A DNA stretch of 41,658 bases from an uncultured Methanomicrobiales archaeon. GTDB lineage: Archaea > Halobacteriota > Methanomicrobia > Methanomicrobiales > Methanospirillaceae. Shown here in pieces: positions 38,918 through 41,522 of the stretch. The DNA lies in NCBI GenBank assembly GCA_903828975.1, contig CAIKOD010000178.1, positions 1 through 41,658 on the forward strand. The letters are read 5' to 3'. Position numbers and translations under genes: made by a program. The stretch's first letter is position 1. Every line of letters begins with the position of its first letter. The notes under the pieces were generated by a model that was not told where the DNA came from, did not search any database, and saw only the letters and a program-made list of their open reading frames with translations.

Positions 38918-39144
38918 TTTCTGCTCACAAACGTATCCGGATAATCTCATATACTTCTTCCGGTAAAACTGCAAGGTTACGGGTAATCCCATGATGTACC
39001 ATAACAATGGAAAATCAAAGGAGACCCGCTGCAGAAAAAAGCAGGCGCATTCTTCCAACTATGGGCTCCTGCTGCCGGTTCACCTCAAAGGAAATGGTTA
39101 AATGAATTCCAATCCTTTTTATTATGATCGATGTTTTAACTGAA

Positions 39145-39227
39145 TTGTATACAAAGTACACATTGTATAATTAATAAAAATCGCAGTTACTGAATTATTT
39201 GTATACAGTGTATACTTTATATACAAC
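39145..39227 (+). promoter_or_regulatory. multi-site palindromic operator region before the tri-domain regulator
   Basis: TTGTATACAA at 39145-39154 is a perfect 10-bp palindrome. TGTATACA recurs at 39200-39207, TGTATAC at 39209-39215 and TATATAC at 39219-39225. The last sites overlap the TATA-like CTTTATATAC (39215-39224). CTGAATT precedes both main sites (39140 and 39190). The pattern suggests autoregulation by the downstream gene. Confidence 0.6.
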
Positions 39228-39290
39228 ACGAGATATTCTATATGCTACATGATGCAGCTATTAATATTTCTTACAGGACGGATATTTGGT

Positions 39291-39962
39291 ATGCACAATG
39301 ATGTGATGATAAGGGTCAGGTCGGAGACCCGTAATCGTCTCAAGATGTTAAAAGGGTTGGATGGAAATCTTGATCAGGTCATCACCAGGCTATTGGATTC
39401 ATATGAGAATAGTCAACAAACCGAACCTATTTTGAGTGAACCTGAAGTTCTCAATTATATATTTGACATCAAAAAGAGGTTGGAAGTTCTCGAAAACAAG
39501 GAAGGCCAATTAAAGGACGTTAATTTAGAAGTTTTACAAAAGCCCAAAAAAATTCGATTAAAAAGATCGACTTCATCAAAAAATACTGTTGAAAAAGTAG
39601 AAAGATTTTTCAAAAATAATCCTAACGCCTCATATAGTGATGCTGCCAAGAAATTAGGGATTACAAAGCAAACAATCGGTTTCCATTACAATAATTTGGT
39701 AAAAGAAGGAATTCTTCCACCCAAAAAAAGCCAAGTAGTAGAAAATAATGAATCGATCGTACCATCTCACACACCTATTTTTGTAAGTACCGATATTGGA
39801 GTCATTTATACACCTGATGAAGCAGCAGCTTTTTTGAGAATTCCCGAGAAAAATGTCATTGATCTTCTACGCGCGGGAAAAATCAAAGGATTTAAGGCTG
39901 GCAGATTTTGGAGAGTCAAGCAATCCAATCTTGAAAATTATCTCCAGGAAAATAGATTATAA
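39291..39962 (+). CDS. three-domain DNA-binding regulator (RHH-like, winged HTH, excisionase-like HTH)
   Basis: A 223-residue protein. Residues 1-40 (NDVMIRVRSETRNRLKMLKG, LDQVITRLLDSYE) look like a ribbon-helix-helix DNA-binding domain. A coiled-coil stretch and basic linker follow. Residues ~100-145 (NASYSDAAKKLGITKQTIGF, HYNNLVKEGIL) are a winged HTH. Residues ~170-223 (YTPDEAAAFLRIPEKNVIDL, LRAGKIKGFKAGRFWRVKQS) match the excisionase/MerR-type HTH_17 fold with the GRFWRV wing. It is AT-rich compared with genes to its left, as are its right-hand neighbours. The preceding palindromes are likely its own operators. ATG 39291 is preferred over ATG 39249 because the RHH motif starts right after it. 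Confidence 0.75.
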   Translation: MHNDVMIRVRSETRNRLKMLKGLDGNLDQVITRLLDSYENSQQTEPILSEPEVLNYIFDIKKRLEVLENKEGQLKDVNLEVLQKPKKIRLKRSTSSKNTVEKVERFFKNNPNASYSDAAKKLGITKQTIGFHYNNLVKEGILPPKKSQVVENNESIVPSHTPIFVSTDIGVIYTPDEAAAFLRIPEKNVIDLLRAGKIKGFKAGRFWRVKQSNLENYLQENRL

Positions 39963-40070
39963 ATCTGTTTTAAAAAAATTTCGAGTATCGTGATGTTCCA
40001 AGTAAATTTGATGTTTTAAATGACATAACGAATAGATGAAGCCACTTATTATTGTTGGATTCCATCTTTT

Positions 40071-40227
40071 TTATTTAGTCATCTGGATAATAACTGCCCC
40101 ATTTTCAACACACCACTCAGTTTGTCTCCTTTTTTGAGATCAAACTGGTTCACGATATATGCAGGGACGGTTGTTCTGATGGAATTTTTTTTGAGCTGGC
40201 TGGATGGATGACGGATTCAACGCGCAA
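40071..40227 (-). pseudogene. broken second copy of the AbrB/MazE-like gene, two frameshifts
   Basis: Read on the minus strand this aligns along its length with the intact gene at 41270-41455: ESVIHPASSKK, then NSIRTTVPAYIVNQFDLKKG, DKLS, then WCVENGAVIIQMTK and a stop. The first piece leaves the second frame at a run of eight A (nine needed). A further single-base loss near AGTGG breaks the frame again before WCVENG. The first codon is TTG or missing relative to the intact copy. It begins eight bases after the rmuC-like stop, on the same strand. Confidence 0.75.
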
Positions 40228-40234
40228 CGGTTAT

Positions 40235-41131
40235 TTATTCCTCATATGATTCTTCAAGATTCAAAGTGCACGATGTAATTTTCTCGAACTCAGTTTTCAA
40301 TTTTTCAAATGTTTTATCTAAATTTGCTGAGGCTTTATCTGCATTATTAAAATGTTTTTTTACTAGTTGCCATCGAGAATCTACCAAACAAAATAGAGTA
40401 CCCAGATTTTCCAAATCTTTCTTTAATTGTTCTGCTTCTTCTGACAATTTTTTTGCATGTACTCCAGCCTTTATTAGCGCAATTTTATGTGCAAGTGTAA
40501 TCGGGGAAGTTACCTGGACACCTTTTTTGGTATAGTCAATTAAAACATCAGGCAATTCTGTAACAAGATAATAGTAGATGCTTTCGGAGGGAATATATGC
40601 AAATGCAAATTCTGCAGAGCCTTTATCCGGATGTATATAATCATCAGCTATTTTATTCAAATGAGACTGAATATCTCGTTTAAACTGTTTTTGAAAGTTT
40701 TCCTTTTCATTTGGATCACTTGTCTCTATCATTTTTCTATAATTATCTAATGGAAATTTTGAGTCAATACAGATAGTCCCAGAAATTGAGCGGATACTTG
40801 CGTCGGGGGTTTTATTATCGAAAACCTGTTGCCTTATCTTGAACATTTCTTGAGGCAATTGATCTTCTAAAATAGATTCAAGAGAGAATTCACCAAAAGA
40901 TCCTCTTTCACTGGGTTTTCGAAGCATTTGATCCAAAGAACGATAGTCCTTTCTAATATCCTGAGCAATTATTCCTAATTCTCCGACAGATCTTTGTAAT
41001 CCTGTTTTATTCCATGCGTTCGACACCGCAAGTTCAATATCATTTTGTTTGAAATTTTCCTTTTTTAAATTTAGAAACAACAAAATCAATAAAAGGACCG
41101 TAATAATCCCGAGAAATATCTCTATTACCAT
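40235..41131 (-). CDS. RmuC family protein
   Basis: A 298-residue protein. One N-terminal membrane helix (IEIFLGIITVLLLILLFLNL) is followed by a charged coiled-coil segment and the RmuC core: GSFGEFSLESILEDQLPQEM, ICIDSKFPLDNYRKMIE, GSAEFAFAYIPSESIYYYLV and VQVTSPITLAHKIALIKAG. RmuC proteins have a restriction-endonuclease-like nuclease core (D...ExK-like; here the IDSKFPL segment) and are linked to limiting recombination between inverted repeats. It is shorter than bacterial RmuC (over 400). ATG 41131 begins the membrane helix; a TTG at 41155 is also possible. It is flanked by intact and broken AbrB-like genes. Confidence 0.85.
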   Translation of the reverse strand: MVIEIFLGIITVLLLILLFLNLKKENFKQNDIELAVSNAWNKTGLQRSVGELGIIAQDIRKDYRSLDQMLRKPSERGSFGEFSLESILEDQLPQEMFKIRQQVFDNKTPDASIRSISGTICIDSKFPLDNYRKMIETSDPNEKENFQKQFKRDIQSHLNKIADDYIHPDKGSAEFAFAYIPSESIYYYLVTELPDVLIDYTKKGVQVTSPITLAHKIALIKAGVHAKKLSEEAEQLKKDLENLGTLFCLVDSRWQLVKKHFNNADKASANLDKTFEKLKTEFEKITSCTLNLEESYEE

Positions 41132-41269
41132 ATAGGATATTCTGCAAACCAGCAATTAAATTTATCAATATAATTCTTAATTATATTTAGATACAATAGA
41201 AATCCGTAATAAAATATATAGTGCCGATTGTGTTAAATGAGCGAAAATCCGACAATGAATCTAATTCAC

Positions 41270-41455
41270 TTACTCTATTTCCTGTTTGGCCACTTGAATG
41301 ACTACTGACCCGTTTTCAATATACCAATTTAATTTATTTCCCTTCTTAAGATCGAATTGGTTCACGATATATGCAGGAACTGTTGTTCTTAACGAGTTAC
41401 TCTTCGAGGTGGCAAAATGGAGCACGGATTCATCGTGTCTTGAATATTTAGCCAT
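41270..41455 (-). CDS. AbrB/MazE-like DNA-binding protein
   Basis: A 61-residue protein with the swapped-hairpin AbrB fold pattern: SLRTTVPAYIVNQFDLKKGN, KLNWYIENGSVVIQVAKQE. Proteins of this length often act as antitoxins or small transcription regulators. No toxin gene of the usual MazF or PIN type is adjacent within the window; the only same-strand neighbour downstream is the RmuC-like gene 138 bases away, which has its own AT-rich promoter region. A degraded duplicate lies on the other side of rmuC. Confidence 0.8.
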   Translation of the reverse strand: MAKYSRHDESVLHFATSKSNSLRTTVPAYIVNQFDLKKGNKLNWYIENGSVVIQVAKQEIE

Positions 41456-41522
41456 TGTTATAGCCTATTTAGGAAAGACTAGGATTTAAACCTTTTTGAA
41501 GAATCGGGTAAACAATACGAGC

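Follow-up and report, generated by a model that had tools for sequence, protein, structure and literature searches.

A 223-residue regulator encoded in the last few kilobases of the window (the whole stretch of DNA analyzed, 41,658 nucleotides) is preceded by an evenly spaced ladder of GTATAC-centered boxes. We put at about 65% the probability that this ladder serves cooperative autorepression by an N-terminal ribbon-helix-helix (RHH) module of the regulator, whose gene lies on a small, AT-rich and probably acquired stretch. The window spans an entire contig (G000:C178); the assembly to which it belongs measures 2.58 Mb and is 97.8% complete. Judged by its DUF2114 protein, the closest named records are MAGs of Methanoregulaceae or Methanomicrobiales, the best of them at 94% (Prado136).

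Six TGTATACA-like boxes stand 5' of the regulator gene and form two triplets with an exact 9-bp step within each. Predicted operator triplet I (39146-39171, no strand assigned) consists of TGTATACAA, AGTACACAT and TGTATAATT, which start at 39146, 39155 and 39164 and carry 0, 1 and 1 mismatches to GTATAC. Predicted operator triplet II (39200-39225, likewise unstranded) lies 54 bp from triplet I and consists of TGTATACAG, TGTATACTT and TATATACAA, starting at 39200, 39209 and 39218 with 0, 0 and 1 mismatches. Exact copies of TGTATACA are found at 39146 and 39200, and the two triplets make up a 25-nt direct repeat with 80% identity at the 54-bp offset. The GTATAC core is kept across the ladder units while the bases between the cores vary, and the three in-register units between the triplets are not boxes. 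The original prediction of at least three TGTATAC-type sites in the promoter, one of them a perfect 10-bp palindrome and others over the TATA box, was thus borne out and extended to six regularly ordered boxes: the palindrome is TTGTATACAA at 39145-39154, and triplet II covers TTTATATA (39216-39223, + strand), which, by the archaeal TATA consensus, we take to be the probable TATA box of the regulator gene. Transcription would then start near 39245. The proposal that CTGAATT extends the repeated unit had to be given up, because its copies at 39140 and 39190 are 50 bp apart, as against 54 bp for the boxes, and are therefore out of register.

The ladder exceeds chance expectation. With up to 3 mismatches, TGTATACWNTGTATACW matched 10 times in the window, nine times within 39146-39225, whereas 100 shuffles gave a mean of 0.44 matches and a maximum of 3; the lag-9 self-identity of 39138-39235 was equalled by none of 2000 shuffles. 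This promoter was the sole locus in the window with GTATAC triplets (at most 3 mismatches in 18), at spacing 9, and the same tolerance gave no triplets at spacings of 8, 10, 11 or 12 across the window. Genome-wide, the single octamer TGTATACA is indeed spread (23 copies versus 13 for the backwards control), and 17 of the 21 copies outside the regulator promoter fall within open frames of at least 80 codons. The paired 9-bp pattern at up to 3 mismatches was no more frequent than its reversed control (26/25 matches as against 30/30), three further genome sites reached 2 mismatches, and at 0-1 mismatch the pattern was confined to the regulator promoter. A random spread of TGTATACA, named at the outset as speaking against an operator, therefore applies to the octamer and not to the paired arrangement, and this confinement to its own promoter points to a regulator that controls itself rather than a regulon.

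The regulator gene likely sits on an acquired stretch, with insertion as the simplest reading, because AT-rich DNA starts where relatives run on into another gene. A segment at 39064-39139 (+ strand) is shared with same-genus relatives, in which it lies just upstream of an S-adenosylmethionine synthetase gene; sequence likeness to three same-genus genomes stops at 39129-39139, and the relatives continue into that gene. In G002 and G003, the synthetase start codon is 15 bases past the position matching 39139, and the G003 protein is an archaeal S-adenosylmethionine synthetase (PF01941, 599.7 bits). Beyond this boundary, 39140-41518 is missing at the same place in the relatives; it has a GC content of 33.6%, compared with 50.5% before, and holds the ladder, the regulator, an RmuC-like gene and a MazE-like gene. 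The RmuC-like gene is convergent with the regulator and present in two of 108 family genomes, the own genome included (E up to 1e-10). No + strand gene follows the regulator, hence no toxin gene lies downstream. A mobile-element or plasmid origin, originally proposed from the AT-richness, is thus supported by base composition and by the left boundary against same-genus relatives. A role in copy control, partition or excision is no more than a proposal: a Pfam scan of five neighbor proteins detected no integrase, replication or partition protein. The contig ends 1.7 kb past the regulator gene, so that the remainder of any element would lie beyond it and no right boundary is seen.

Several features of this region deserve mention in their own right. 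The contig end (41519-41658) is a 139-140-bp repeat that recurs with 100% identity where five other contigs end and, by eye, carries a GTCCAAC-type inverted repeat; it is probably the edge of a transposable element. MazE-like antitoxin gene copies at 40121-40186 and 41333-41398 (80% over 66 nt) flank the RmuC-like gene, and the left copy is a remnant with an in-frame stop. The region of the MazE-like gene (41278-41511) is a multi-copy unit, with more than one match in either of two same-genus genomes (several in each, the longer ones at 76-83% identity). To the left of the boundary, 39079-39132 stands out by its conservation within the genus (93-95% over 51-60 bp, above its surroundings), perhaps as a promoter or leader.

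There is a limited but appreciable chance that the left boundary is instead an assembly join between the region that precedes the synthetase gene and unrelated DNA. A protein search of the rest of the assembly did not find the synthetase, and a DNA search did not find the synthetase-his stretch; the synthetase, hisG and hisA, which come next in the relatives, were thus not recovered, and the repeat at the end of the contig also ends others. On the other hand, a lost contig explains the absent genes in an assembly of 97.8% completeness, and at 39139 there is no repeat longer than a few bases. The ladder and the regulator gene stand whether the boundary is an insertion or a join.

We place the regulator gene at 39291-39962 (+ strand, 223 aa). 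An in-frame alternative start at 39249 yields the longest open reading frame (237 aa); we preferred 39291 because the RHH-like segment begins there. The C-terminal HTH_17 domain (PF12728; residues 173-222, 39807-39956, + strand) is clear at 57.8 bits against a Pfam cut-off of 27, and the NCBIfam excisionase-family domain TIGR01764 passes as well (39.4 bits, cut-off 28.8). The winged HTH (HTH_24, PF13412; residues 108-141, 39612-39713, + strand) is borderline, with 23.1 bits barely above the cut-off of 21.9. The N-terminal segment (residues 6-41, 39306-39413, + strand) resembles DUF7557 and VapB antitoxins. Its match to DUF7557 (PF24434) lies under the Pfam cut-off of 25, with 17.3 bits for the whole protein and 21.2 bits for residues 1-50. 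Against a DUF7557 profile built from 36 sequences with the window protein left out, residues 1-50 scored 24.7 bits, whereas none of 2000 shuffles exceeded 10.7, which indicates kinship to DUF7557 beyond composition. Hence, of the predicted chain of RHH, winged HTH and excisionase-like HTH, the last part is firm and the second just passes. The RHH part lacks a profile match of its own and an above-threshold DUF7557 score, and retains a likeness far above shuffles.

From this kinship to antitoxin domains and from the operators, we infer that the N-terminus is an RHH. The Pfam results for the whole protein and for the first 50 residues included no RHH family, and profile searches against solved structures returned no significant RHH relative of the N-terminus; MazE7 appeared at E 0.11-0.3 with profiles of relatives. 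AlphaFold2 modeled the whole chain poorly from the single sequence (pLDDT 52), with helices at 11-20 and 25-40, and residues 1-49 alone as one long helix (pLDDT 87). The latter model would count against an RHH, or it may be an artefact of folding a short dimeric domain alone. The domain combination of the regulator appears to be absent from all genome, plasmid, phage and viral-contig sets searched. We found no full-length homologue beyond the HTH parts in genome contigs or viral contigs (a search that needed near-exact peptides), none in plasmids apart from three partial HTH matches, and none in phages. Regulator matches were only partial in the 108 family genomes (in three besides the own genome) and in 392 phylum genomes (at most 7 candidates scored per genome), and residues 1-165 matched 232 order genomes, outside the own genome, only within residues 71-149.

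We therefore looked at DUF7557 genes themselves. Of 108 family genomes, 76 had a match to the domain, which in 70 exceeded the cut-off. A downstream frame of at least 70 codons, starting between -25 and +80 from the DUF7557 stop, accompanied 40 of 46 loci, and eight of ten such frames scanned matched ParE_toxin, seven over the cut-off. In a first promoter set (49 rows, one gene twice), GTATAC occurred within 120 bp in 11, at -14 in eight of these. A second set comprised 58 further DUF7557 matches of family genomes, fetched after the ladder idea arose; GTATAC lay within -60 to +3 in 11 of its 57 unique promoters, compared with none of 56 distal 120-bp controls, and CTATAG was found in 21 of the 57. 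Gene starts were set by rule at the nearest Met at most 8 residues before the domain, as a result of which a small number of promoters are misplaced. Across 28 representatives of both sets (<60% identity), the last 60 bp repeat at a lag of 10 (0.355 versus 0.273, z 7.3) and of 20 (z 3.9), with no repeat at lag 9 (z -1.6). The 10-bp spacing of the antitoxin ladders and the 9-bp spacing of the window ladder are thus a real difference. At the DUF7557 loci L088, L089, L090, L099 and L215 (Methanomicrobiales), 10-bp ladders of N-TATA-N' palindromes reach the start codon.

The type of box seems to follow one beta-strand residue of the DUF7557 protein, an idea that was conceived after the data were seen. 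Among 103 unique promoters, 46 belong to genes with Arg or Lys at this position; GTATAC occurred in 18 of these, and none had CTATAG/CTATAA-type boxes. Of the 50 promoters of Gln or Tyr genes, 41 contained CTATAG/CTATAA-type boxes and 2 GTATAC. The remaining seven genes had another residue or none at this position. When reduced to 35 representatives of <70% identity, the Gln/Tyr part held (4/8 versus 1/27, Fisher p 0.006), and the association of Arg/Lys with GTATAC failed (8/21 versus 3/14, p 0.46). On these comparisons, the proposed code is partly supported.

A pattern-only search of 232 order genomes for three GTATAC at 9 bp (at most 2 mismatches) used no protein information. Matches came from 11 genomes, and the ladder pattern had 13, compared with 50 for the backwards control (counted from the table), so that triplets at 2 mismatches are to be expected by chance, most being chance or coding matches. 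Outside the window there were ten loci: seven lay in open frames, two overlapped the beginning of an HxlR-type gene and one was a promoter ladder. At one mismatch or fewer, a triplet was present in only two of the 232 genomes, the window's own and G362, which contains this promoter ladder: four 9-bp boxes (two GTATAT, two GTATAC) located 44-71 bp 5' of a gene for a 181-aa protein (L437). This protein passes both VAPB_antitox (30.1, cut-off 27.9) and DUF7557 (25.6, cut-off 25) and shares 45% identity over 33 residues with residues 7-39 of the window protein (E 3e-7, single comparison); its remainder had no HTH match in the Pfam scan. G362, found by a search blind to proteins, is the best single support for a link between ladder and domain, and it is one case. 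The two HxlR-associated loci (L439 and L440 in G344 and G520) occupy orthologous places, and there the GTATAC 9-bp ladder overlaps the gene start; the G520 gene, the one of the two that was scanned, matches HxlR (PF01638) with 84.5 bits. The divergent gene beside these ladders begins MYCYQCEE and is presumably a hybrid-cluster protein gene (hcp).

The HxlR loci bear on whether it is the winged HTH of the regulator, or HTH_17, and not its N-terminus that reads the ladder; the gene would still be self-controlled. For such a reading, it also matters that curated cut-offs are exceeded by the winged HTH and by HTH_17 and that the model of the N-terminal fragment is not an RHH. We nevertheless regard it as unlikely, as similar ladders accompany DUF7557 genes lacking a winged HTH, and in G362 the gene that follows a near-perfect promoter ladder matches VAPB_antitox and DUF7557 only.

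Palindrome clusters can also be denser than an operator calls for. In G083, a gene for a DUF7557-coiled-coil protein (L113, DUF7557 30.2 bits) is preceded by six GTTAAC palindromes (-71 to -6), and another eight lie close to it or within it, which makes 14 in 584 bp (L209 9865-10448, G083:C1). Five of the sites in this region are inside the gene and three are 379-401 bp upstream. In total, L209 contains 18 GTTAAC in 19.9 kb, compared with 5.2 expected from composition; a 1243-aa frame further along G083:C1 may, by eye, encode a phage tape-measure protein. This excess over the need of a simple operator would fit a ladder that belongs to a site by which a mobile element is maintained or excised (through partition, copy control or recombination), with the protein as site binder and repression as a secondary effect. 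The HTH_17/excisionase match and the AT-rich DNA with its boundary relative to relatives agree with this. HTH_17 is, however, present in many proteins other than excisionases, the five scanned neighbors lack integrase, replication and partition functions, and the right boundary is not visible, which makes such a site doubtful as the primary role of the ladder.

Viral contigs were searched in the same way. GTATAC triplets were present in 102 stretches at 9 bp and 42 at 10 bp, with 14 for a CATATG control; of the 102, 90 fell inside open stretches of 100 codons or more, and 12 did not. An RHH-like gene followed one of the 102 (L270), and by the profile used there was none behind the 10-bp (0/42) or CATATG (0/14) stretches. 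We therefore rejected the ladder as a marker of viral RHH genes, since these ladders are mostly coding repeats. At L270 (8973-9146 of IMGVR_UViG_3300025736_000301), four TGTATACA-type boxes at 9 bp stand 14 bp before a 45-codon RHH-like frame, which has sub-threshold RHH matches and an AGGAGG-like site before it and may represent this self-control unit at its smallest. Although the coding viral repeats would suit a decayed 9-bp tandem repeat without function, we consider this very improbable for the window, where the ladder stands upstream of a gene, cores are kept while intervening bases vary, the three in-register units between the triplets are not boxes, and ladders recur before genes with related N-termini.

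For autorepression, we counted the position of the ladder over the TATA box, its excess over chance and the precedent of archaeal viral RHH repressors described below. For the RHH module as the reader of the ladder, we counted the profile score of the N-terminus against its shuffles, the ladders of the DUF7557 genes and of the VapB/DUF7557 gene of G362, together with the six GTTAAC palindromes before L113. Against it, we counted the sub-cut-off DUF7557 score, the one-helix fragment model, the absence of an RHH relative among solved structures, the 9-bp spacing here versus 10 bp in the antitoxins, the ladders at HxlR genes, the larger number of control matches and the mostly coding loci in the search of the order genomes, and the mostly coding viral ladders. 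In the resulting working model, the N-terminal DUF7557/VapB-like RHH module would dimerize, each dimer would occupy one GTATAC-centered palindrome, and adjacent dimers would bind cooperatively along the 9-bp ladder. A filled triplet II would cover the TATA box and keep out TBP/TFB, and the regulator would thereby limit its own synthesis. Triplet I, 54 bp upstream, may be a nucleation site or a road-block at the start of the host promoter left of the boundary; judging from its position, it falls at the point from which the former synthetase promoter would direct transcription. Further DNA contacts may come from the winged HTH and HTH_17, with targets most likely outside the assembly; a candidate site for these two domains was not found. 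A MetJ-like link to S-adenosylmethionine, suggested by the neighboring promoter, was dropped, as nothing spoke for it.

More speculatively, the window protein could be the three-headed, bridging form of an archaeal family of modular repressors, which we hold to be rather improbable as a whole. One DUF7557/VapB RHH module would read an N-TATA-N' ladder, and its central beta-strand residue would set the outer base pair, Arg/Lys specifying GTATAC and Gln/Tyr CTATAG. The C-termini would vary, with the module fused to ParE-binding tails, a coiled coil or two HTH domains, and the window protein would coat its own promoter and bridge to a second site, such as one for partition or recombination on its mobile element. 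If the ladder rule is true, DUF7557 promoters could become readable from sequence, the boxes predicting the binding protein and vice versa, and the window gene would represent a module employed outside toxin-antitoxin pairs and fused to two more DNA-binding domains. Few archaeal repressors have a known operator. DUF7557 is a common yet unstudied antitoxin family; we found no paper naming DUF7557 or PF24434 among the open-access full texts searched. We consider the ladder rule most worth following.

Among the closest parallels are the DUF7557 antitoxins with ParE-type toxins of methanogens, which have a similar N-terminal segment and a regular GTATAC-type ladder before the gene. They differ from the window regulator in having a toxin gene downstream, in the 10-bp spacing and in a ladder that reaches the start codon, whereas the window ladder lies over the TATA box and its regulator carries two extra HTH domains. 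L437 of G362 is alike in its 9-bp GTATAY ladder and its 45% identity over 33 residues, and differs in its length of 181 aa and the lack of a match to the HTH domains. HxlR regulators (PF01638; G344/G520) have the same GTATAC 9-bp ladder, but theirs overlaps the gene start, and their winged helix differs from that of the window protein, which matches HTH_24. In bacteria, RHH dimers of CopG and MetJ bind adjacent short palindromes at a regular spacing of 8-9 bp; the likeness to the window is in palindrome spacing, with no sequence kinship in evidence, and there is no sign of a methionine link of the MetJ kind despite the adjoining synthetase promoter. Finally, the archaeal viral RHH repressors SvtR, AvtR and F55 bind and repress their own promoters, occupying distal high-affinity sites first and then spreading over BRE and TATA (PMC5569661). 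Their operators differ in sequence from the window ladder, and two of them, SvtR and F55, are small RHH proteins that lack both HTH domains of the window regulator. What they would have in common with the window protein, its RHH being predicted, is RHH autorepression that spreads toward BRE and TATA.
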